DNA from: Methylobacterium mesophilicum SR1.6/6
Lineage (GTDB): Bacteria > Pseudomonadota > Alphaproteobacteria > Rhizobiales > Beijerinckiaceae
DNA: 64,000 nt
Direction of reading: 5' to 3'
NCBI RefSeq assembly: GCF_000364445.2
Contig: NZ_CP043538.1
Location: 6,491,180-6,555,179, forward strand
A program made the position numbers and the translations under genes. Below are positions 24,012 through 36,051 of the stretch, piece after piece. The notes below the pieces were generated by a model that saw only the letters and a list, made by a program, of their open reading frames with translations, did not search any database and was not told the DNA's origin. Position 1 is the stretch's first letter; every line of letters begins with the position of its first letter.

Positions 24012-24976
24012 ACGCCCACCTCCCCCCGCGACGACCGGAGCCCGCCGCCCGCATGTCCACCGTCTCCGTCGTGACCCTCGCGAAGGGCCGGCCGGCCCAT
24101 CTGCGCAACGTGCTCCTTGGCCTGGAGCGCCAGACGCAGGCCCCCGTCGAGTTCATCGTCGCGGTGATGCAGGACACGCCCTACGACCTGCCCGCGGTCG
24201 ATTTCCCCATGCGCCAGATCCTCGTGCCGGGCCGCGAATTGCCGCTCGCGGCCGCGCGCAACCGCGGCGTGGCGGCGGCATCCGGCGATGCTGTGGTCTT
24301 CCTCGACGTCGATTGCATCCCGGCGCCCGAACTCGTCGCCGATTACGCGCGGGGCCTCTCCGAGCTCGACGGGTTGCTGATGGGCGAGGTGCTGCACCTG
24401 CCCGAGCGCGCCACGACGGAAGCCTGGGACTACGCCGGGCTTGACGCCGTGGCGGAGAAGCATTCCGACCGCCGGGGCCCTCCTGCTTCCGGCATCGAGA
24501 TCTGTAACGATTACCGCTGCTTCTGGTCGCTCAACTTCGCGATCCAGCGGGCCACCTTCCTGGCGACCGGCGGCTTCGACGAGCGCTACACCGGCTATGG
24601 CGGCGAGGACACCGACTTCGGCAAGCTCCTCGACCGGAGCGGCATCCCAATCGCCTGGATGAAGGGCGCGCGCGCCTATCACCAGTACCACCCGCACCAC
24701 ATGCCGCCGGTCCATCACCTCGAGAGCGTGGTGCGCAACGCCGAGCTGTTCGAGGCCAAGTGGGGCTACCGCACGATGGGCCACTGGCTCTACGCCTTCA
24801 AGGTGATGGGCCTGATCGACGACACGCCCGACCGGCCGATCCGCATCCTGCGCCGGCCCGACGCCGCCGATCTTGCGCTGACCGGCCAGCAGGGCCACCA
24901 GCCCTACACCAACTCAGCTTCGGTGATCCGTGCCATCGAGGCCCGGGCGGGCGAGCCCGCGCCGGTGACGGCGTGA
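24008..24976 (+). CDS. Glycosyltransferase family 2, paralogue of the 21965-22849 enzyme
   Basis: The 322-residue protein has TVSVVTLAKGRPAHLRNVLL at the N-terminus of the GT-A fold, the DxD at D100-V-D102 (VFLDVDCIPAPE), and GGFDERYTGYGGEDTDFGK at the C-terminal acceptor/elongation motif. AYHQYHPHHMPPVHHLESVV is also present. It aligns well with the GT2 three genes upstream and is a duplicate within the operon. The ATG at 24008 overlaps the previous stop (ATGA); an internal ATG at 24053 is a possible alternative. It overlaps the next GT4 by four bases. Confidence 0.86.
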   Translation: MNAHLPPRRPEPAARMSTVSVVTLAKGRPAHLRNVLLGLERQTQAPVEFIVAVMQDTPYDLPAVDFPMRQILVPGRELPLAAARNRGVAAASGDAVVFLDVDCIPAPELVADYARGLSELDGLLMGEVLHLPERATTEAWDYAGLDAVAEKHSDRRGPPASGIEICNDYRCFWSLNFAIQRATFLATGGFDERYTGYGGEDTDFGKLLDRSGIPIAWMKGARAYHQYHPHHMPPVHHLESVVRNAELFEAKWGYRTMGHWLYAFKVMGLIDDTPDRPIRILRRPDAADLALTGQQGHQPYTNSASVIRAIEARAGEPAPVTA

Positions 24977-26031
24977 GGATCGCGCTCCTCGCTCATCTCC
25001 GCCACCCGATCGCCCCGCCCTTCGCGGGCGGCCTTGAAGCCTACACCTGGAGCCTCGCGGACGGACTCGCCGCCCGCGGCCACGCGGTCACGCTGTTCGC
25101 TTCCGGTGATAGCGACGCGCGCTTCGCCCTGGATCCTGTGATCCCGATCCATCACGAACGGAGCCATGCCGGCCTGGAGCACCGGAGCGATGTGGGGCTG
25201 AAGAGTCATCTCGACAGCGGCTACACCGCCGCCTGCGACCGGATCGCGGCCGGAGGCTTCGACGTGCTCCACAACAACAGCCTGAGCCGATTGCCCCTGG
25301 AGAAGCGGCGTACCGCTGCGACGCCGACCGTCACGTCGCTGCACGTGCCGCCCTACGATGCCCTCCGCTGGTTCGTGCAGGCGAGCCCCGCCCCGGGACA
25401 CCGGATCACCGCGACGTCCCGGGCGCAGCTGGATGCGTGGTGGCCGGACGGGGGGCCCCCGGAGGCATCGGTGCTCCACAACGGCATCGATCCTGCCGCC
25501 TGGCCCTACCGACCGCGCGGCGACGGCAGCGCGGTCTGGTGCGCGCGGATCACGCCGGACAAGGGCGCGCCGCACGCGATCGCGGCGGCGCGTCGGGCCG
25601 GGCTTCCGCTGACCCTGTTCGGCCCGATCGAGGAGCCCGGATATTGGGAGGGGCAGGTCGCGCCGTTGCTCGGAGGATCGATCCGCTACGGCGGTCAACT
25701 CAGCGGTGCGGATCTGGCTGCGGAGGTCGGCCGCGCCTCCGTGTTCCTGGCCACCCCGTGCTGGGACGAGCCGTTCGGGCTGGCGGCGATCGAGGCGATG
25801 GCCTGTGGCCTGCCGGTCGCCGGCTTCGCCCGGGGCGCCGTCCCGGAGGTCGTTGGCGAATCTGGATCCCTCGCTGCGCCGGGGGACGAGGAGAGTCTTG
25901 CCCGCGCTATCGGCGAGGCGATCGCGATCCCGCGGCCGGTCCCGCGCGGGCGTGTCCTGCGCCTGTTCACCCGCGCACGGTGGCTCGACCGATGCGAGGC
26001 GCTCTACGCGCAGGCCTGCGCCGTCGGGTGA
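24973..26031 (+). CDS. Glycosyltransferase family 4
   Basis: The GTG at 24973 lies inside the preceding stop (GTGA). The 352-residue protein reads VRIALLAHLRHPIAPPFAGG at the N-terminus, with PFAGGLEAYTWSLADGLA as the Gly-rich acceptor loop. WCARITPDKGAPHAIAAARR and TPCWDEPFGLAAIEAMACG provide the donor domain with E-x7-E. It is clearly related to the GT4 at 18790-19830 (both have PEPFGL/DEPFGL, IEAMACG and a similar VPE(I/V)V end). It is the last glycosyltransferase of the rightward operon. Confidence 0.86.
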   Translation: MRIALLAHLRHPIAPPFAGGLEAYTWSLADGLAARGHAVTLFASGDSDARFALDPVIPIHHERSHAGLEHRSDVGLKSHLDSGYTAACDRIAAGGFDVLHNNSLSRLPLEKRRTAATPTVTSLHVPPYDALRWFVQASPAPGHRITATSRAQLDAWWPDGGPPEASVLHNGIDPAAWPYRPRGDGSAVWCARITPDKGAPHAIAAARRAGLPLTLFGPIEEPGYWEGQVAPLLGGSIRYGGQLSGADLAAEVGRASVFLATPCWDEPFGLAAIEAMACGLPVAGFARGAVPEVVGESGSLAAPGDEESLARAIGEAIAIPRPVPRGRVLRLFTRARWLDRCEALYAQACAVG

Positions 26032-26096
26032 CCCCACCGCTCTTCCCGCATGGCTGCCCCTCCTGCGCCTTCTCAACAGCCTAAAATCAGAGTGAC

Positions 26097-26765
26097 ATGA
26101 CCCGTCAGGAACTGATCGCCGCCCTGTGGCACGGTTGCGACCCCTTCGCGGATCCCCCGACGGACCTACGCGCCGGCGACCTTCAAGGCTGGCGCAGCAT
26201 CCATCCCTACCTCGAGGAGGCGGTGATCGAGTTCCGGCCACGCGTGGTCGTCGAAATTGGGACTTGGAAGGGAGCTAGCGCGCTCTTTCTTGCGCGATCC
26301 ATGGCCGAGCACAACGTCGCCGGCACCGTGATCGCGGTCGATACGTGGCTCGGAGCCGTCGATCATTGGGCGGACGAGACGCTTTTCGCGGAACTCGCCA
26401 CCGAGCATGGCTATCCGAGCCTCTACCGAACCTTCCTGGCCAATGTGCTGCGCGAAGGCATGACGGACCACATCGTGCCGTTACCGCTCGACTCGGTGAA
26501 TGCCGCGGAACTTCTGCGTCTGCGCGGCGTGACCGCCGATGTCATTCATCTCGATGCCGGGCACGAGGAGGCGTCCGTCGCGGCGGACCTGCGCGCCTGG
26601 TGGCCGGTCCTGCGACCTGGAGGCCTCCTGATCGCCGACGATTACGACCGCCTGGGCGGCCGCTTCCCGGGTGTTACCCGGGCGGTCGATACGTTCTGCG
26701 CCGAGGCAGGGGCGCGGGGACCGTGGTCACTGCGGGGCAAGTGCAAGTTCATCAAGCCGGATTAG
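26097..26765 (+). CDS. Class I SAM-dependent methyltransferase (Methyltransf_24 / CmcI-like)
   Basis: The 222-residue protein has the SAM-binding motif VVVEIGTWKGASALFLARS, the motif II acid in GTVIAVDTWLGAVDHW, DVIHLDAGHEEASVAADLRAW and GGLLIADDYDRLG. This pattern is seen in O-methyltransferases that cap polysaccharides and in CmcI-like proteins. It lies 65 bases after the GT4 gene and on the same strand, so methylation of a glycan or glycoside made by the island is a sensible guess. It ends about 110 bases before the left end of the transposed segment. Confidence 0.8.
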   Translation: MTRQELIAALWHGCDPFADPPTDLRAGDLQGWRSIHPYLEEAVIEFRPRVVVEIGTWKGASALFLARSMAEHNVAGTVIAVDTWLGAVDHWADETLFAELATEHGYPSLYRTFLANVLREGMTDHIVPLPLDSVNAAELLRLRGVTADVIHLDAGHEEASVAADLRAWWPVLRPGGLLIADDYDRLGGRFPGVTRAVDTFCAEAGARGPWSLRGKCKFIKPD

Positions 26766-26874
26766 GGTTAATCAAGTGCTTTGCCTGTAGGCCGGCGACT
26801 CCGTCTGCGGTAGGCCTCCCTCGACTTGGCGGCAGCGAAACCAATCCAGAGTTGATGTCTGCTTTCGAGATGTC

Positions 26875-26882
26875 GGCGGCAC
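26875..26882. repeat. Left copy of 8-bp target-site duplication
   Basis: GGCGGCAC lies immediately outside the left inverted repeat, and the same eight bases lie immediately outside the right inverted repeat at 36044-36051. Eight base pairs is the duplication length made by IS66-family transposition. Confidence 0.85.
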
Positions 26883-27003
26883 GTAATTACCCACGGGGTA
26901 GCTTGGTCGTCGGTTGAACGCCCGCGGCTGCGCTCCTGCCGAGCCAAGCTTGCCTCTTGCGCGGGTCGTCTCTTGCGCGGGGCGAATTTCGCTGATTCCT
27001 TCG

Positions 27004-27123
27004 TGGGAGGTGGCCTGAGCGGCGTGCCCAGAACCCGATCCCATCTCGAACTCGGCCGTTAAACACGCCAGCGCCCATGGTACTGTGTCTCAAGACACGG
27101 GAGAGTCGGTCGCCGCCAGGCCT
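27004..27123 (+). rRNA. rrf: Orphan 5S rRNA-like gene, possibly degenerate
   Basis: The sequence contains the 5S core CCCGATCCCATCTCGAACTC followed by GGCCGTTAAAC, then GGTACTGTGTCTCAAGACAC and GGTCGCCGCCAGGCC. Helix II (GGCGTG/CACGCC), helix IV (GTGTCT/AGACAC) and an inner helix I (GGTGGC/GCCGCC) can form. Two bases in the loop E region differ from the usual sequence: GCCCATGG instead of GCCGATGG, and GAGTCGG instead of GAGTAGG. The outer helix I strand on the 5' side is shortened. No 23S or 16S precedes it. It may be a pseudogene or a divergent orphan copy; the ends are approximate. Confidence 0.72.
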
Positions 27124-27178
27124 GCCCATCGCAATTGCCGGACACACCTCCAACCATTCCCTCATCGCGAGACACGAC

Positions 27179-27214
27179 GCGAAAAGGCCGCTCCTTCCGG
27201 GGCGGCCTTTTCGC
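27179..27214 (+). terminator. Strong intrinsic terminator-like hairpin after the 5S-like gene
   Basis: GCGAAAAGGCCGC (27179-27191) pairs perfectly with GCGGCCTTTTCGC (27202-27214) across a 10-nt loop. The run of T in the descending arm fits an rRNA operon terminator. Its survival suggests the 5S unit was moved with its own 3' signal. Confidence 0.8.
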
Positions 27215-27523
27215 GTTTGGACCGTGGCCCTCACGGAGCTTGCCTTACCGCGAAGTCATCTCGCCGCGAGCGTCCCGTAATCGGCAGCGCGCGATGGTGC
27301 CGGAGCCGCCGATCCGCTCCTCGGATCGCGCGGACGAAGCCGCGGCGAACCTCGCGCCCTCCGAGGACCCTCAATGCCGCTTCGGAACGGGTCGGGATTC
27401 GCGCCCCGCGGACCCGGCCCGTTCATCCGATCGGCTCATGGGGCGATAGGGGAGGGGATCGGCTTGACCATGCTGACCGAGACACGTTCCCCCGCATTGC
27501 GTGGCACGCTATGGACCAGTTCC
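27215..27523. other. Intergenic leader of the two-component operon
   Basis: About 310 bases between the 5S terminator and the response regulator. It contains GGGGAGGGG at 27449-27457, 12 bases before an alternative in-frame ATG at 27470. I see no separate gene here. Confidence 0.35.
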
Positions 27524-28219
27524 ATGCGACTGCTCATCATCGAGGACGATCGGGAGGCGGCGGCCTACCTGGTCAAGGCGTTCCGCGAGACCGGGCATGT
27601 CGCCGACAGCGCCCATGATGGCCTCGACGGGTACGCCCTGGCGCGCGAAGGCGCCTACGACGTGCTGATCGTCGACCGCATGCTGCCCAAGCTCGACGGC
27701 CTCTCGCTGATCCGCTCGCTCCGCGAGCAGAAGGTGGCGACGCCCGTGCTGATCCTCTCGGCGCTGGGGCAGGTCGACGACCGGGTGAAGGGTCTTCGTG
27801 CCGGCGGCGACGACTACCTCCCGAAGCCCTACGCGTTCTCCGAGTTGCTCGCCCGTACGGAGGCCCTGGCCCGGCGGCAGTTCGGCACCGGGGCCGCGGA
27901 GGAGACGCGCTACCGGATCGGCGACCTGGAGCTTGACCGCCTTTCACATCGTGTGACCCGCGCCGGGCGCGAGATCCTGCTGCAGCCGCGGGAGTTCCGC
28001 CTCCTCGAGTACCTGATGCGCCATGCCGGGCAGGTCGTGACGCGCACCATGCTGCTGGAGCATGTCTGGGACTATCACTTCGATCCGCAGACCAACGTGA
28101 TCGACGTCCACGTTTCGCGCCTTCGCGGCAAGCTCGACAAGGGTTTTCCCACCCCGATCATCCACACGGTCCGGGGCGCGGGCTACGTGCTGCGCGTCGA
28201 TGAGGGCAGCTCCGGGTGA
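27524..28219 (+). CDS. OmpR/PhoB-family response regulator
   Basis: The 231-residue protein has an N-terminal receiver (MRLLIIEDDREAAAYLV; phosphoacceptor D51 in LIVDRMLPKLDG; Lys in LPKPYAF). A C-terminal winged helix follows with LLQPREFRLLEYLMRHAGQV and HTVRGAGYVLRV, typical of the OmpR group. An in-frame ATG at 27470 with a nearby GGAGGGG could add 18 residues; the 27524 start is preferred because the domain begins there. The gene overlaps the kinase gene by four bases. It resembles regulators of metal or envelope stress, but the signal is unknown. Confidence 0.92.
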   Translation: MRLLIIEDDREAAAYLVKAFRETGHVADSAHDGLDGYALAREGAYDVLIVDRMLPKLDGLSLIRSLREQKVATPVLILSALGQVDDRVKGLRAGGDDYLPKPYAFSELLARTEALARRQFGTGAAEETRYRIGDLELDRLSHRVTRAGREILLQPREFRLLEYLMRHAGQVVTRTMLLEHVWDYHFDPQTNVIDVHVSRLRGKLDKGFPTPIIHTVRGAGYVLRVDEGSSG

Positions 28220-29724
28220 ACACGCCACGGGCCGACGCCGCGCTCCCGCCAGAGACGAGCGGCGCGCGCTTCCAGAAGCTGTTCCGCACCACCGCGTTCA
28301 AGCTGTCGCTGGCCTATCTCGCTATCTTCGCACTCTGCGCCTTCCTGGCGTTGGGCTACGTCGCGTGGAACGCCCGCGCGGTGCTCGACGACCAGATCGT
28401 CTCGACCATCGACGCCGAGATCAACGGCCTGTCGGAACAGTACAATGCCGGCGGTTTGCGCCGGCTGATCACCGTGGTGGAGCGGCGCTCGCGCGAGCCG
28501 GGGGCCTCGCTCTACCTCGTGACCACGGCCGGGGGCGACCACGTCGTCGGCAATGTCGGCTACGTCCCCGCCGCCGTGCTGGCGACCCCCGGCCAGAGCG
28601 AGACACGCTACGGCCGCAACGACTCGGATGCCGAGGCGCACCGGGCGATCGTGCGGGTCTTCACCCTGCCGGGCGGATTCCGGCTCCTCGTGGGGCGCGA
28701 CACCGAGGAGCGCGACCGCCTGCGCGCGGTGATCGGGCGGGCCTTCGTCACCTCGCTGGCCGCCGTGGTGCTCCTGGGCGTAATCGGCGGCTGGCTCGCG
28801 GCGAGCCGCGTCCTGCGGCGCGTCGATGCCATGACCCAGACCACCCGGGCCATCATGGCGGGTGATCTCGACGACCGGCTCCCCGTTGCCGGCAACGGCG
28901 ACGAGCTCGACCGCCTCGCCTCAAGCCTCAACCTGATGCTGGAGCGTATCGGCGAGCTGATGCGCGGGATGCGTGAGGTCTCCGACAATATCGCCCACGA
29001 CCTCAAGACGCCGCTGACGCGCCTGCGCAACCGCGCCGACGAGGCCCTGCGCCGGTCCTCGACGCCGGACGAGCTGCGTGCCGCGCTCGAGGCGGTGATC
29101 GAGGAGGGGGACGGGCTGATCCGGGTGTTCAACGCGCTCCTGATGATCGCCCGGCTTGAGGCCGGCAGTGCGCGGGAGATCCTGGTGCCGCTGGACATCG
29201 GCCCCGCGGTCAGAGGCGTCGGCGAGCTGTACGAGGCCCTGGCGGAGGATCAGGGACTCGTCCTCGACGTGCGCGCGGAGGAGGGGCTGATCATCGCCGG
29301 CAACCGAGAGCTGATTGGCCAGACCCTGGCCAATCTCGTCGACAACGCCCTGAAATACGGGGCTGCCGCAGAGGGAGGCGCGGCCCGGGTGACCCTCGAG
29401 GCGTGGCGGGCCGAAGACTCGATCCGGCTCGCCGTCTCCGATCACGGACAAGGCATCCCGGAGGCACAGCGCGCCCGCGTCCTCGATCGCTTCGTCCGGC
29501 TGGAGGATGCCCGGTCGAGGCCGGGTTTCGGGCTCGGACTCAGCCTGGTCAACGCCGTGGTGCGCCTGCATCATGGGGTCCTGCACCTCTCCGACAATGC
29601 TCCGGGGCTGCGGGTCGAGATCGCATTTCCGGCCGCGGCGCGCGCCGTGGCGGAGGCCGGTGACATCCGCGACGCGCCGCCATCGGCCGCCTCTGTGCCG
29701 GCGGCGCCTTCACGCGCTAGTTAG
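28216..29724 (+). CDS. Membrane sensor histidine kinase, partner of the OmpR-type regulator
   Basis: GTG inside the regulator's stop codon starts a 502-residue protein. It has a first membrane helix (LSLAYLAIFALCAFLALGYV), a periplasmic domain of about 110 residues, and a second helix (SLAAVVLLGVIGGWLAAS). A HAMP domain follows with VLRRVDAMTQTTRAIMAGDL. The HisKA box is VSDNIAHDLKTPLTRLRNRA with H261, and the HATPase has an N box (LANLVDNALKYG) and G boxes (DHGQGIP, GFGLGLSLV). The layout is the QseC/CusS type. It should sense a periplasmic or envelope signal and phosphorylate the adjacent regulator. Confidence 0.92.
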   Translation: MNTPRADAALPPETSGARFQKLFRTTAFKLSLAYLAIFALCAFLALGYVAWNARAVLDDQIVSTIDAEINGLSEQYNAGGLRRLITVVERRSREPGASLYLVTTAGGDHVVGNVGYVPAAVLATPGQSETRYGRNDSDAEAHRAIVRVFTLPGGFRLLVGRDTEERDRLRAVIGRAFVTSLAAVVLLGVIGGWLAASRVLRRVDAMTQTTRAIMAGDLDDRLPVAGNGDELDRLASSLNLMLERIGELMRGMREVSDNIAHDLKTPLTRLRNRADEALRRSSTPDELRAALEAVIEEGDGLIRVFNALLMIARLEAGSAREILVPLDIGPAVRGVGELYEALAEDQGLVLDVRAEEGLIIAGNRELIGQTLANLVDNALKYGAAAEGGAARVTLEAWRAEDSIRLAVSDHGQGIPEAQRARVLDRFVRLEDARSRPGFGLGLSLVNAVVRLHHGVLHLSDNAPGLRVEIAFPAAARAVAEAGDIRDAPPSAASVPAAPSRAS

Positions 29725-29796
29725 ATCCCCGTTTCGTCCCGCCGCGCTCGCGGCGCCCGTCCCGATCGACGGTGCGTCCGCGTCCCAGGAGGTCCC

Positions 29797-30582
29797 ATGA
29801 CCCTCAAGACCAAGACCGCCCTCGTCACAGGCTCCACCAGCGGCATCGGCCTCGCCATCGCGCGGGCTCTGGCGGCGGAGGGCGCCAACGTCGTGCTGAA
29901 CGGTTTCGGGGACGCGAATGCCATCGAGGAGACCCGCGCGGGGATCGAGGGCGCCTACGGCGTCGAGGCCCGCTACTCGGCCGCCGACATGAGCAAGCCC
30001 GAGGCGATCACCACCATGGTCCGGGAGGCGGAACAGGCGTTCGGATCCGTCGACGTCCTGATCAACAATGCAGGGATTCAGTTCGTCTCGCCGATCGAGG
30101 AATTCCCGGCGGACAAGTGGGAGCAGATCATCGCGATCAACCTGTCCTCGGCCTTCCACGCGATGCACGCCGCGATCCCGGGCATGAAGGCGCGGGGCTG
30201 GGGCCGGATCATCAACACGGCCTCGGCGCACTCGCTGGTCGCCTCGCCGTTCAAGTCGGCTTACGTCGCCGCCAAGCACGGGATCGCCGGCTTGAGCAAG
30301 ACGGCCGCGCTCGAACTCGCGCCTCATAGGATCACGGTGAACTGTATCTCGCCGGGCTACGTCTGGACGCCGCTGGTGGAGGCACAGATCCCCGACACCA
30401 TGAAGGCCCGCGGCCTGACCAAGGAGCAGGTGATCGAGGACGTGCTGCTCAAAGCGCAGCCGACCAAGGAGTTCGTGACGGTCGATCAGGTCGCCGCACT
30501 CGCGGTGTTCCTGTGCTCCGACGCGGCGAGCCAGATCACCGGCGCCAACATCAGCATGGATGGCGGCTGGACGGCGCAGTAG
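29797..30582 (+). CDS. bdhA: 3-hydroxybutyrate dehydrogenase (short-chain dehydrogenase)
   Basis: The 261-residue SDR has the cofactor motif VTGSTSGIGLAIARAL, the NNAG motif, and the catalytic S143-Y156-K160 set (NTASAHS; SAYVAAKHG). GIQFVSPIEEFPADKWEQII and the ending MDGGWTAQ are characteristic of D-3-hydroxybutyrate dehydrogenases, which oxidise 3-hydroxybutyrate to acetoacetate with NAD+ when PHB is broken down. AGGAGGT precedes the ATG. It fits a methylotroph's PHB and ethylmalonyl-CoA-linked metabolism, as does meaB nearby. Confidence 0.9.
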   Translation: MTLKTKTALVTGSTSGIGLAIARALAAEGANVVLNGFGDANAIEETRAGIEGAYGVEARYSAADMSKPEAITTMVREAEQAFGSVDVLINNAGIQFVSPIEEFPADKWEQIIAINLSSAFHAMHAAIPGMKARGWGRIINTASAHSLVASPFKSAYVAAKHGIAGLSKTAALELAPHRITVNCISPGYVWTPLVEAQIPDTMKARGLTKEQVIEDVLLKAQPTKEFVTVDQVAALAVFLCSDAASQITGANISMDGGWTAQ

Positions 30583-30596
30583 CCCTGGAATGGGGG

Positions 30597-30626
30597 GCGG
30601 CCCCGCCCGAGGGCGGACGGGGCCGC
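30597..30626. terminator. Bidirectional terminator hairpin between bdhA and the CsbD-like gene
   Basis: GCGGCCCCG (30597-30605) pairs with CGGGGCCGC (30618-30626) over a 12-nt loop, in the 50-base gap between convergent genes. Confidence 0.65.
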
Positions 30627-30632
30627 GTTCGG

Positions 30633-31010
30633 TCAGCGACGGCTGTGGATCAGCAGCGCGAGGCCGTACCCGACCGCGCCGGCGATCAGCAGCGCCACAA
30701 GCGGGTTCTCCTCCACGCGAGCCCCCACGGCCGCGCGGCCGTCGCGCAGATAGGAACCACCCCGCTCGTAGGCGTCCCCCGCCAGATCCCCGGCGCGATC
30801 GTAGGCATCGCTCGCGTAGTCGCCGGCCCGGTCGGCCATGTCGCGCGCCCTGTCCTTGACCTGCCCATAGACGTTCTGCGCCTGGCCCTGAGCCTCGCGG
30901 AACCGTCCCTCGACCGAGTCGCGGTTCGAACCGACGAAATCGCCGGCCGCACCTTGAACCTTGCCGGCGGCTTCCTTGGCACCGCCGACGATCCGATCCG
31001 TATCAACCAT
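30633..31010 (-). CDS. CsbD-like stress protein with C-terminal membrane helix
   Basis: The 125-residue protein begins MVDTDRIVGGAKEAAGKVQG, the CsbD start, and continues with repeated amphipathic 11-residue-like units (GDYASDAYDRAGDLAGDAYE) as in LEA-type proteins. The C-terminus VEENPLVALLIAGAVGYGLA is a membrane helix, as in DUF883/ElaB-like proteins. GGAGAG precedes the ATG. It is probably induced by stress or stationary phase and associates with membranes; the exact role is unknown. Confidence 0.75.
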   Translation of the reverse strand: MVDTDRIVGGAKEAAGKVQGAAGDFVGSNRDSVEGRFREAQGQAQNVYGQVKDRARDMADRAGDYASDAYDRAGDLAGDAYERGGSYLRDGRAAVGARVEENPLVALLIAGAVGYGLALLIHSRR

Positions 31011-31158
31011 GGCACTCTCCTGGACGTGGGCGCGGCGCCGGGACCGGGCGCCCTCGATACGCCGTCGTCCTCGGAACGCACGAGATCGCGTTTGTGCCCC
31101 CGACCGATCATGAATTTCTGCCGACCTGCGCATTCCGGGGCCGGCGTCCCCGAGCGGT

Positions 31159-32145
31159 TCAGAGTCCGATCAGCTCGGCGATGGCGGTCGCGCCGGCTGC
31201 GGGAGAGGTCTCGCCGCGGGCGACGCCCGCTTCCGCCTCGGCGGTGCGGCGCCGGACCTCCGGGGAGCCGACGAGTCGCTGGTGCAGGCGCTCGTCCACC
31301 AGCGCCCACATCCACTTGACGTCCTGCGTCCGCCGCTTCGCCTGGATCTCGCCGGTGGCGGTGAGCTTCTCCCGGTGGTCGACGATCTTCGCCCACAGGG
31401 CATCGAGCCGTAGGTTGTGAAAGCCCGAGATCGTCACCACCGGTGGCGTCCACGTGGCGAAGGCCGGGGTGAGGATGTGCAGGGCGGCGCGGTATTCCGA
31501 GGCCGCCGCGTTGGCCCGCTGCTCGGCCTCGCCGGCATCGGCCTTGTTGACCGCGATCATGTCGGCGAGTTCGAGGATGCCCTTCTTGATGCCCTGCAGC
31601 TCGTCGCCGGCGCCGGGAAGCATCAGAACGAGGAAGAAGTCGGTCAGGTCGGCCACCGCGGTCTCCGACTGACCGACGCCCACGGTCTCAACCAGGATCA
31701 CGTCGAATCCCGCCGCCTCGCAGAGCAGCATGGTCTCGCGGGTCTTGGCCGCGACTCCGCCCAGCGTACCCGATGACGGCGAGGGGCGGATGAAGGCGTT
31801 CGGATCGTGCGAGAGCCGCGCCATGCGGGTCTTGTCGCCGAGGATCGAGCCGCCGGTGCGGGAGGAGGACGGGTCGACCGCGAGGACCGCCACCTTGTGG
31901 CCGGCCTCCGTCAGGTTCGAGCCGAGGGCATCGATGGTGGTCGACTTGCCGACCCCGGGCACGCCGGTGATCCCCACGCGGATCGCCCTGCCGGTCTCCG
32001 GCAGGACCGAGTCGATCAGGCCGGCCGCGAGCGCCCGGTGATCGGCCCGCTTCGACTCGGCCAGGGTGATGGCCCGGGCCAGGGCGGCGCGGTCGCCGCG
32101 CAGCAGGCGCTCGCGCAGGCTCTCGATGTCGATGGACGGCGTCAT
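31159..32145 (-). CDS. meaB: MeaB-family GTPase, chaperone of methylmalonyl-CoA or related B12 mutases
   Basis: The 328-residue G3E-type GTPase has the P-loop GVPGVGKST at residues 61-69, the Mg/switch region [30 protein letters not shown], and the specificity motif NKAD. The N-terminal helix-rich arm and C-terminal dimerisation arm ([14 protein letters not shown]) are as in MeaB. It protects and reloads adenosylcobalamin in methylmalonyl-CoA or ethylmalonyl-CoA mutase, steps of glyoxylate regeneration in Methylobacterium. It is normally a single chromosomal gene, so its presence inside a segment with transposon ends is notable. Confidence 0.95.
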
Positions 32146-32335
32146 GATCTCTTCATGGCTGTGGCGCGGGCCGCCGTCGAGAGGGTCGGACACGCGATCA
32201 GCCCGCGGCGCCCTGTGGCCGGGGGACCACAAGCCGGGCCTTGCGGGTTCTCCACAACGACCAACAGGCGGCGTGCCCCGCCACGGTCATGATCCTGCGC
32301 GACGAGGGTGCCCCCCGCCCGAGCGTACCCGGATC

Positions 32336-33364
32336 ATGTCGAGCCAGACCGTCTCACGCCGCGTCCTTCTCCGGTTCGGTGCCCTCGCGGGCGCCGCAGG
32401 CCTCGCTCCATCCCTCGGCGCCTGCGTCACCGATGATCTCGGCACCGGTGCGGCGCTGCCCGAGAAGCAGTCGGCCCTCGACGTCATGCCGGTGCTGCTG
32501 GTCGCCACGACCCGCAAGCCCGTGGGTCACCCGCCCCGGCCCCCATACTTCAGCAGCGACCGCGGCCGCGGCCTGAGCTTCGCCGAGGTGCGCCTCTCGC
32601 CTCCCGACCGCTCGCTGCTGGGTAAGGTCTCCTCCGTCATCACCGGCGACTGGACGATCGGGGCCGTGCCGAAATCTGAGACCGGACCGGGCGCCGCTGA
32701 GGCCTTCGCGCAGGCCGCGCTGGGACGCGACGTGCTGATCTACGTCCACGGCTACCGCGAATCGTTCGAATCGGCCGCCGTCAGTGCCGCGCGCCTGTCG
32801 GACGGCATCCGTTTCCGGGGCGTCTCGGGCCTGTTCACGTGGCCTTCGGCGGCCGCAACGCTCGACTACAATTACGATCGCGAGAGCGCGCTCTGGTCGC
32901 GCGATGCCTTCGAGGACCTGCTGAAGGCGCTCGCCGCATCGCCGAGCGGAGGCCGGATCAATATCGTCGCGCATTCCATGGGCACGCTCCTGACCCTCGA
33001 AACTCTCCGGATGCTGCGCGCCGAAGCCGGCGAGGCGGCGATGTCGCGCATCGGCGCCGTGGTGCTGGCGGCCCCCGACATCGATTTCGACCTCTTCTCC
33101 AACGGCGTCGCGCGCCTGGGACCCGACGTCTCGAAGATCACCGTGATCTCCGCCACCAACGACCGCGCCCTCGAGCTCTCGGCGGCCCTGGCGGGCGGGG
33201 TCCGGGCCGGCGCAGTCGACCGCGCGAAGCTGGAGGCGCTGGGCGTGCGCGTCGCCGACGCCTCCGATTACGGCGGCGGCCTGATCAACCACGACCTGTT
33301 CCTGTCGAATCCGGAGGTGCAAGGGGTGGTCAAGCGCGCCATCGCCCGCGGGACCGGGGTCTGA
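32336..33364 (+). CDS. DUF900 alpha/beta hydrolase, Tat-type lipoprotein
   Basis: The N-terminus SRRVLLRFGALAGAAGLAPS has a twin-arginine motif, and LGACV at residues 27-31 is a lipobox, so export and lipid anchoring are predicted. The mature part is an alpha/beta hydrolase of the DUF900 type: VLIYVHGYRESFESAAVSAA, LFTWPSAA, the nucleophile elbow IVAHSMGTLL, and VVLAAPDIDFDLF. Total length is 342 residues. The activity is unknown, probably an esterase or lipase in the periplasm. It is divergent from meaB with a 190-base promoter gap. Confidence 0.85.
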   Translation: MSSQTVSRRVLLRFGALAGAAGLAPSLGACVTDDLGTGAALPEKQSALDVMPVLLVATTRKPVGHPPRPPYFSSDRGRGLSFAEVRLSPPDRSLLGKVSSVITGDWTIGAVPKSETGPGAAEAFAQAALGRDVLIYVHGYRESFESAAVSAARLSDGIRFRGVSGLFTWPSAAATLDYNYDRESALWSRDAFEDLLKALAASPSGGRINIVAHSMGTLLTLETLRMLRAEAGEAAMSRIGAVVLAAPDIDFDLFSNGVARLGPDVSKITVISATNDRALELSAALAGGVRAGAVDRAKLEALGVRVADASDYGGGLINHDLFLSNPEVQGVVKRAIARGTGV

Positions 33365-33567
33365 GGCATCCACGCGGTCACAGGCGGGAGCGCGATTCTT
33401 CGGAGCGGCCGGGCTTGGCGACCGTCGGGTTCATCCCTACAGCATCCGGCGTGGCGCGCAGGACCGCCGGTTGGGACCCGCGGGTCGCCCCGGGGCGGAT
33501 GCGCCGCGTCGGGTGCCGTCCGACCACCCGGGCGCACCAGAGCACGGTTACGAGAGGGATGCCGGCC

Positions 33568-33903
33568 ATGTTCACGCTCGAGATCGACGGCACCGCCGTG
33601 GCGGTGATCAACAGCGACGAGGCGTCCGCCAAGGACCTCTTCACCTGCACGGGCTTCAAGGAAGACATCCGGACGATGACGAGCGAGGGCAAGCCGCTCT
33701 GGAACGGCACCTCGGCGCTCAAGGTCCGTGCGGCGACCGAGGACGAGATCGAGATCTTCGAGGATGCCCTGGCGGAAGACGACGGCGAGGGTGACTTCAC
33801 CGACGATCCGCGCCACGCCGACGCCGATTCGGACGACGAGGACGAGGCGGATATCGTCTTCCTCGTGGATATCGACGAGGACGAGGACGAGGCCGACGCC
33901 TGA
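33568..33903 (+). CDS. Small acidic protein of unknown function
   Basis: The 111-residue protein begins MFTLEIDGTAVAVINSDEAS and ends in a long Asp/Glu tail (EDEADIVFLVDIDEDEDEAD). GAGAGG precedes the second of two possible ATGs. There is no signal peptide or membrane helix. The N-terminal half is compact and beta-rich; the acidic tail suggests binding of metal or basic partners. I do not recognise a characterised family. Confidence 0.7.
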   Translation: MFTLEIDGTAVAVINSDEASAKDLFTCTGFKEDIRTMTSEGKPLWNGTSALKVRAATEDEIEIFEDALAEDDGEGDFTDDPRHADADSDDEDEADIVFLVDIDEDEDEADA

Positions 33904-33972
33904 GCGCGGCTGAACCCGACCGCCTCCCGGGTGGTTTCCGATCCGGTTCGGATCTGATCCCGGGAGGATGGC

Positions 33973-34485
33973 ATGGCTGACAGCAGGCGGATCGTCGACG
34001 CGCTGGTGCGCGCGCGGCGTGGCGGACTCGCCGCGGGCGCCGCCCTCGGCGGACTGGCGCTGATCGGCGGGCTCGCCTACCGGGCCCTGCGCGGCGCGGC
34101 GCCCCCCGAGACGGGTGGTCCGGACTTCACCGACGTCGCCGAGGACGAGGCCAGGCTGATGCTGCGGGCCATGGTGGCGGCCACAACGGCCGACGGGTTG
34201 GTCGACGCCGCTGAGCGCAAGCGCCTCGATGCGGCCGTTGCCGAGGCGGGCCTCGATCCCGACGGGCGATCGTGGCTGGAGCGCGAACTCGCGAGCCCGG
34301 CCGATGTCGACGAGATCGCCGAGCGGGTCGCAGGGCCGGACGCGGCGGCGCGCATCTATGCGGCAGCCCGCCTCGCCATCGACCCCGACACCCTCCAGGA
34401 ACGCCAGTTCCTGAAGATGTTTGCCGAAGCCCTCGACCTGCCCACCGAGGCGGTGGAGCGGGTCGAGCGCGACATCGCGGCCTGA
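33973..34485 (+). CDS. DUF533 / TerB-like protein
   Basis: The 170-residue protein has a Gly/Ala-rich possible membrane helix (residues 17-40, LAAGAALGGLALIGGLAYRA) followed by a TerB-like all-alpha domain: LMLRAMVAATTADGLVDAAE, LASPADVDEIAERV and ERQFLKMFAEALDLPTEAVE. This matches DUF533 (YebE-like) proteins, often membrane-associated. AGGATGGC precedes the ATG. The function is unknown. Confidence 0.78.
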   Translation: MADSRRIVDALVRARRGGLAAGAALGGLALIGGLAYRALRGAAPPETGGPDFTDVAEDEARLMLRAMVAATTADGLVDAAERKRLDAAVAEAGLDPDGRSWLERELASPADVDEIAERVAGPDAAARIYAAARLAIDPDTLQERQFLKMFAEALDLPTEAVERVERDIAA

Positions 34486-34597
34486 TCCTGTCATCGCCGC
34501 GGTCGACCGACATCCCAATATTGCCGCGCTCCATGCTAGGCTCTTCGGTGCTTGAACAGGGCCGGATCGGCCCGAGCGCGGAGGGCCGGGACATTTC

Positions 34598-35662
34598 ATG
34601 GCAGGATCGTCAGTGCCCGCCCCATCGCGCGCCCGGCGAGCCGCCTGCGCGGCGGTCGTGGCCATGCTGATCGGCGGCGGCCCCGCCCGGGCGGCGGATC
34701 CGCCTCCGGGACCGCTGACCATCGCCGAGCAGGGCAGTTTCTTCGTCGGCGGACGCGACGTCGCCTCCGACACGCTCTCGACCCTGCCGGCCTACGCGCC
34801 CTCCGGCACGATCAGCGTCGACCAGATCTATGTCCGCTACCAGGTGCCGGTCTCGGCCGCGCGCCCGCCGCTGGTGCTGATCCACGGCTGCTGCCTCACC
34901 GGCAAGACCTGGGAAACCACGCCGGACGGCCGCATGGGCTGGGACGAGTTCTTCGTGCGCCGCGGCTTCCCCACCTACGTGATCGATCAAGCCTGGCGCG
35001 GGCGCTCGGCGGCGAGCCCGGCGCAGATCAACGCCGTGAAGAGCGGCCACGCGGAGCTGAACTCTCTGCCCACCGTCTTCTCGGCCGGCCGCGAGCCGGC
35101 CTGGGCGATCTTCCGCTTCGGCCCGGAATACCCGAAGGTCTTCCCGGGCATGCAATTCCCCCTGGAGGCCCAGGGCGAGTTCTGGAAGCAGATGGTCCCC
35201 GACTGGTCGGCCTCCCTAGCGGTCCCGAATCCGACCGTGCCGGCCCTGTCGGAACTTGCCAAGCGCCTGAAGGGCGCGGTCCTGGTCTCCCACTCGCAGT
35301 CGGGAATCTACCCGTTCCAGACCGCCGCCCTCGATCGCACGGGGATCCGCGCCCTCGTGGCCATCGAGCCTGCCGCCTGTCCCGATCCGGCCAAGGATGA
35401 CCTCGCCCCCTACAAGGACCTGCCGATCCTCGTCCTGTTCGGCGACTACGTCGATGCCTCGCCCCGCTGGGCGCCGCGGCTGAAGCTTTGCCGCAGCTTC
35501 GTGGCGGCGGCGAACGCGGCAGGCGGCAAGGCCGAGCTGATCCTGCTGCCGGAGATCGGCATCCACGGCAATTCGCACATGCTCATGCAGGACAAGAACA
35601 GCCTCGACATCGCCGACTGGCTGTCGGGCTGGATCGAGAAGCGGGTGTCCGGGAAGTCGTGA
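34598..35662 (+). CDS. Secreted alpha/beta-hydrolase (esterase-like)
   Basis: The 354-residue protein has a cleavable signal peptide (AACAAVVAMLIGGGPARA, cut near residue 32). The alpha/beta hydrolase elements are PPLVLIHGCCLTGKTWETTP (HG oxyanion loop), the nucleophile elbow VLVSHSQSGIYPFQ, VLFGDYVDAS for the acid, and GIHGNSHMLMQD for the catalytic His. It should work in the periplasm on an ester; the substrate is unknown. It is the last intact gene before the right end of the transposed segment. Confidence 0.85.
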   Translation: MAGSSVPAPSRARRAACAAVVAMLIGGGPARAADPPPGPLTIAEQGSFFVGGRDVASDTLSTLPAYAPSGTISVDQIYVRYQVPVSAARPPLVLIHGCCLTGKTWETTPDGRMGWDEFFVRRGFPTYVIDQAWRGRSAASPAQINAVKSGHAELNSLPTVFSAGREPAWAIFRFGPEYPKVFPGMQFPLEAQGEFWKQMVPDWSASLAVPNPTVPALSELAKRLKGAVLVSHSQSGIYPFQTAALDRTGIRALVAIEPAACPDPAKDDLAPYKDLPILVLFGDYVDASPRWAPRLKLCRSFVAAANAAGGKAELILLPEIGIHGNSHMLMQDKNSLDIADWLSGWIEKRVSGKS

Positions 35663-35744
35663 GGCGGGTGCACCGTCTGCCGCAATGGCAAACGGATTCA
35701 CACGTCTCGATCCGGCACCAATGTCCTGAGAAAATTGAGCTTTT

Positions 35745-35765
35745 CCCTCCCCCTTGCGGGGAGGG
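35745..35765. repeat. Hairpin repeat of the CCCTCCCC/GGGGAGGG type
   Basis: CCCTCCCC (35745-35752) pairs with GGGGAGGG (35758-35765), followed by GTAGGGGTGGGG. This is a common intergenic repeat in Rhizobiales and may act as a 3' end signal for the esterase message. Confidence 0.5.
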
Positions 35766-35811
35766 GTAGGGGTGGGGTGTGGCAGAAGGCACGACCTCAT
35801 GAAGCTCGTTC

Positions 35812-35890
35812 CTCGACGAGATCCGTAAGCAGTATGTGCTGACCGCGCGGATGAAGGGCCTGTCCCAGCGGCGGGTGCTCTACGGCCACG
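35812..35890 (+). pseudogene. Fragment of an oligopeptide-type ABC transporter permease
   Basis: The translation LDEIRKQYVLTARMKGLSQR followed by RVLYGHV is the EAA-loop region of dipeptide/oligopeptide permeases (usual form ...YVRTARAKGLSERRVL...HA). Only about 26 codons are present, with no start or downstream helices. It is fused directly to transposase-like sequence, so it marks a recombination joint inside the mobile segment. Confidence 0.7.
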
Positions 35891-35921
35891 TCAACGGCAG
35901 CACGGGCGTTCAGGACCAGCC

Positions 35922-36014
35922 GAGGGCGAGGCCGCCATCCGCACCGTCGTCGACACCGCGCGCCTCACAGGCAGCAGTTCCTTCGACGCCATCCTCAAAA
36001 CCATCGGCGCTTGA
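35922..36014 (+). pseudogene. C-terminal tail of an IS66-type transposase
   Basis: The frame EGEAAIRTVVDTARLTGSSS followed by FDAILKTIGA ends in TGA at 36012-36014, 29 bases before the right terminal repeat. This form (short helix with TVVDTARLTG, then stop close to the inverted repeat) is what an IS66-like tnpC end looks like. The catalytic DDE part and tnpA/tnpB are gone. The family call leans mainly on the GTAA ends and 8-bp duplication. Confidence 0.5.
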
Positions 36015-36043
36015 ACCCTGCCATCAAACGCGTGGGTAATTAC

Positions 36044-36051
36044 GGCGGCAC
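36044..36051. repeat. Right copy of 8-bp target-site duplication
   Basis: GGCGGCAC, identical to 26875-26882, follows directly after the right terminal repeat. Confidence 0.85.

Follow-up and report, generated by a model that had tools for sequence, protein, structure and literature searches.

Apparent 9.16-kb IS66-type transposon in a Methylobacterium mesophilicum genome assembly is very probably a misplaced contig between true insertion sequence ends

The apparent 9.16-kb transposon in the window, i.e., the last 64 kb of a genome represented by one contig of 6,555,179 bp, very probably results from an assembly error. With a probability of roughly 0.94, the 8.9-kb cargo between its two insertion sequence (IS) ends is a contig misplaced by the assembly, and the transposon as such is not real; most likely, the real chromosome carries one ordinary 1435-bp IS66-type element at this site, flanked by GGCGGCAC. 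The core is regarded as a misplaced contig because its borders lie ~127 bp inside two unrelated repeats and because block X, the stretch adjoining the cargo in relatives, ends at a lone N in this genome. The evidence is indirect and points away from a segment that is continuous in the real chromosome. The case implies that a convincing false transposon can arise in a single-contig assembly when a misplaced contig comes to lie between genuine IS ends with a genuine duplication. The features of the region are compiled in Table 1.

Table 1. Features of the apparent transposon and its borders, in window coordinates
Feature	Position	Strand	Basis
Left copy of target duplication, GGCGGCAC	26875..26882		Exact match; present once at the empty site of G101
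Left 126 bp of the resident 1435-bp IS66-type element	26883..27008	+	Exact match
Putative misplaced contig; native place in relatives between rRNA operon and block X	27009..35796		Gene order of relatives
Putative contig start, last ~127 bp of the rRNA-operon repeat, with 5S gene	27009..27135	+	Rfam match 27006-27121
OmpR-type response regulator	27374..28219	+	ORF as listed, true start probably later
Sensor histidine kinase	28216..29724	+	ORF and profile matches
3-Hydroxybutyrate dehydrogenase	29797..30582	+	ORF and profile matches
meaB, methylmalonyl-CoA mutase-associated GTPase	31159..32232	-	ORF and profile matches
Alpha/beta hydrolase, DUF900	32339..33364	+	ORF and profile match
DUF533 protein	33973..34485	+	ORF and profile match
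354-aa ORF without Pfam match; last conserved cargo gene	34598..35662	+	ORF and relatives
19 bp common to cargo tail and N-side end of block X (genome position 6405300)	35778..35796	+	Exact
88-bp exact copy of 4421752-4421839, within a permease-like gene	35805..35892	+	Gene label by eye
26 bp unique in the genome	35893..35918	+	Exact search
Rightmost 125 bp of the IS66-type element, including transposase stop	35919..36043	+	Exact match
Right copy of target duplication, GGCGGCAC	36044..36051		Exact match

Insertion site and resident IS66-type element

The ends of the segment are exact 13-bp inverted repeats (GTAATTACCCACG at 26883-26895 on the plus strand and 36031-36043 on the minus strand) with exact 8-bp repeats immediately outside both of them, just as a sequence-only reading of the window had described. 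A search of the window for the 13-mer with up to 2 mismatches gave 2 matches, both exact, compared to a mean of 0.41 in shuffled sequence, and 2 matches were reached in 6 of 100 shuffles. Genome-wide, 14 exact copies were found and none of the reversed control. The same 13-bp ends bound a 1435-bp element that is present in three full copies, at 170258, 715807, and 5849162. An exact scan of named genomes for 40 bp of the IS end gave no match, although records of the present genome may be missing from that set. This resident element features one ORF of 426 aa with IS66 transposase domains (PF03050, E 1e-33; zf-IS66, E 6e-10; NF033517 above cut-off), and its 13-bp ends are exact, inverted and start with GTAA. 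GTAA-type inverted ends are a signature of the IS66 family. The earlier assignment of the window termini to this family was borne out, the match to the resident element extending over 126 bp on the left and 125 bp on the right, and what had been noticed as a transposase-like stop at the right end corresponds to the last codons of the element's transposase. Equal 8-bp flanks accompany two of the three full copies. The third (5849162-5850596) has the unequal flanks CCATTCAT and GGTTGCGC, which recur beside lone IS ends at 3506936 and 5170178; this could reflect either further misjoins or real recombination between copies.

In the relative G101, the left flank is present at 98% identity and leads through a single GGCGGCAC into ~28 more bases of the right flank before the sequences diverge, i.e., both flanks are joined at an empty site. 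Because full copies of the element exist in the genome and G101 features this empty site, the comparison of sequences supports a genuine IS66-type insertion with an 8-bp duplication. A chance match of ends and duplication, already judged unlikely from the letters of the window, is ruled out by the 13-mer counts (14 versus 0 in the control), the full IS copies and the empty site. The latter fits a plain IS insertion and an IS66-mobilised 9.16-kb transposon equally well. The segment is also absent from G068, where only 2 bp separate the left flank, aligned as far as 26798, from the right flank, aligned from 36284 onward, the bases between these positions and the segment ends lying outside the alignment. 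An inversion or deletion between IS copies was discarded, as neither would produce identical 8-bp flanks in agreement with an empty site.

Two further observations concern the surroundings of the site. Window positions 24504-26883 match G101 (C167) over 2.4 kb at 98% identity, whereas the cargo reaches only 83-86% in the same genome; judged from sequence identity, the similarity of the flank might possibly reflect a recent exchange. Besides, the G+C content drops from ~0.70 to ~0.60 right of the site (window 36000 onward), which suggests a more recent acquisition of that region.

Native place of the cargo

The cargo genes proved to be those named by the sequence-only reading (an OmpR-type regulator with its kinase, 3-hydroxybutyrate dehydrogenase, MeaB and 5S rRNA), and the cargo is single-copy in the genome. 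It was searched for in 59 genomes of the genus, the own genome included, and long colinear matches were obtained in part of them. Thirteen relative loci were compared: 8 were chosen from the longest of these matches, and 5 came from a later search of 7 closer genomes. In 12 of the 13, block X adjoins the end of the cargo at a distance of 99-304 bp. The exception is G106, where the 20 kb examined contained no block X match of 300 bp. An inversion in G017 includes both block X and part of the cargo, which remain adjacent. On the other side, 23S and 5S genes directly precede the cargo in G037, and in four relatives the cargo is preceded by Ns, their records containing N runs of 3.5-5 kb at the expected place of the rRNA operon.

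In the present genome, block X is situated at 6397441-6405135, ~0.11 Mb from the cargo, and terminates on the side of the cargo in a lone N at 6405301. No N occurred in a sample of 400,000 bases taken from 20 evenly spaced places of the genome. The bases of block X beside the N begin with TGTGGCAGAAGGCACGACC, the same bases with which the cargo tail ends (35778-35796). Thus, the presumed true neighbour of the putative contig, block X, ends in a gap elsewhere, at a lone N and with the shared 19 bp. A 16-bp core of the shared sequence was encountered at only two places in 617,009 own bases (overlaps included), namely the end of block X and the cargo tail, and was absent from another 14 loci of this genome selected for their similarity to the cargo. 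When both tails are joined at the 19-bp overlap, they form one long hairpin (-43.2 kcal/mol; z -7.3 relative to shuffled sequences, which average -22.5), which is a plausible cause of a contig break. Beyond the lone N, a block Y of ~10.4 kb is followed by 23S pieces (~350 bp) at ~6415700-6416089; block Y gave no match of at least 150 bp in the 10 relative loci compared. The N, block Y and the 23S pieces (6405301-6416089) together occupy the place which, from the relatives, would be expected for the cargo and an rRNA operon.

The left end of the cargo, at 27009, lies inside the 5S gene. Further copies of the rRNA operon in relatives match the cargo through its position 126 or 127 and then stop; moreover, matches to these 127 bp at the cargo start are present in three plasmid records, those of four others ending earlier. 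As the matches of the relatives' operon copies and of the plasmids stop there, the cargo contig starts ~127 bp short of the point where the rRNA repeat ends. The plasmid matches, in 8 of 17 records, suggest a Methylobacterium-like host. A scarcity of rRNA operons in this genome, where one 5S gene and two 23S pieces (~350 bp) were found, was set aside as an argument, since the genome may be masked like the records of the four relatives.

Cut depths, joins and alternative readings

A constant depth of borders inside repeats, as left by misjoined contigs, was found in both kinds of repeat. Short left IS ends extend over 126 bp in the window, 126 bp at 937485, where a single N follows directly, and 128 bp each at 2239476 and 3882839; short right ends extend over 125 bp in the window, 125 bp at 2239225 and 127 bp at 3506936. 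A lone left end at 5170178, cut at 389 bp, is the outlier. Accordingly, seven of the eight short IS ends in the genome are cut at 125-128 bp, these being exact-match lengths which may include 1-2 chance bases, and with the diverged partial copy at 1715909 (85% identical) left out of the count. The border in the rRNA repeat lies at 126-127 bp. An overlap that stays near 127 bases across unrelated repeats is characteristic of contigs from de Bruijn assembly at k = 127. Since one cut depth recurs in two unrelated repeats, the IS and the rRNA operon, these lengths are best understood as contig overlaps with k near 127. A composite IS66 transposon bounded by two eroded IS copies is disfavoured, both remnants being cut at the depth of most short ends.

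Two readings in which the segment is real were weighed against this pattern, and both are very improbable. According to the first, IS66 transposase acted in trans on two ends and carried 8.9 kb from beside the rRNA operon, duplicating 8 bp, the segment itself being devoid of a transposase gene. The exact ends, the exact duplication and the empty site in G101 would all agree with such a move, as would a cargo which is single-copy and absent beside block X in this assembly. However, a move of this kind predicts neither the cut depths nor an N with a matching 19 bp, while the ends share their cut depth with others in the genome, the cargo begins ~127 bp inside the rRNA repeat and block X terminates at the lone N with just these bases. 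If it were true, IS66 ends would be able to move chromosomal housekeeping DNA in trans. The sequence-only reading had proposed either that IS66 machinery moved chromosomal DNA or that such DNA replaced the core of a resident IS66 element. Its IS66 interpretation is supported for the insertion with the 8-bp duplication, given the full copies and G101, and unsupported for both proposals on the 8.9-kb core: core borders ~127 bp inside two repeats and block X at its lone N speak against the former, and the same border depths together with the block X evidence count against the latter.

The second reading, no more probable than the first, assumes that a genuine 252-bp (MITE-like) element with an internal deletion resided here and that recombination or end-joining later placed the cargo in its centre. 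A 252-bp form indeed exists at 2239225-2239476, with left and right short IS ends abutted, near-identical inner borders and its own duplication GAAGGGGC. Despite its MITE-like look, it probably represents a full IS of which the assembly retained a pair of contig ends; 127 + 125 = 252 would also be expected from two such ends abutted. Short remnants of IS ends do occur in relatives, yet their lengths vary (~140, 157, 164 bp and more), and no pair of ~127-bp left and right ends was present among the matches listed for 110 other genomes, of which the best candidates per genome were scored. The right join would suit error-prone repair: the cargo tail is connected to the right IS end by 8 bases, the 88-bp permease-like copy and the 26 unique bases. 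Nevertheless, an insertion would be needed at the same junction in several loci, and the N at block X as well as the cut depth in the rRNA repeat would be left unexplained. The patchwork of 88 and 26 bp could also stem from a chimaeric read or an error in gap filling. Next to this join, window positions 35739-35797 are part of a dispersed intergenic, CTCCCCCTTGCGGGGAGGGG-like repeat with at least dozens of partial matches in the genome.

Against the misplacement of a contig stand the joins, neither of which contains an N in the window, the 389-bp end, the 88-bp and 26-bp pieces, and G106 with its missing block X. If the contig was misplaced, a short-read assembler at k near 127, a type and k that we infer, would have failed to cross the repeated IS. 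Then ~127 bp of the element would remain at the end of the left contig and, from its other end, ~127 bp at the start of the right contig. While these flanks would have been ordered correctly, a separate 8.9-kb contig, belonging between the rRNA operon and block X ~0.11 Mb away, would have been scaffolded into the gap between them, a gap which should contain the full 1435-bp IS66 element.

Relation to known systems

The resident element resembles the single-ORF, ISBst12-like group of the IS66 family in its one 426-aa ORF, its GTAA-starting 13-bp ends and its 8-bp duplications. According to one published account, ISDge4 is a single-ORF element of the ISBst12 group with an 8-bp direct repeat (PMC12898284). 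In contrast to this group, the window segment consists of two ends only, without a transposase gene, and differs from IS66 elements in general by an 8.9-kb core which belongs to none of them. With respect to assemblies, misassembled loci with breaks at IS and rRNA-operon repeats are described for genomes marked complete (PMC5771137), and another report refers to scaffolding mistakes during the joining of short-read contigs (PMC5481147). Breaks at IS and rRNA-operon repeats are shared between such repeat-induced misassemblies of single-contig bacterial genomes and the present case. For similar structures, the depth of junctions inside repeats offers a general check, as one depth across unrelated repeats indicates contig overlap and not biology. 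Unlike in the usual repeat-induced misassembly, the putative misplaced contig lies here between true IS ends and a true duplication and in this way imitates a transposon.
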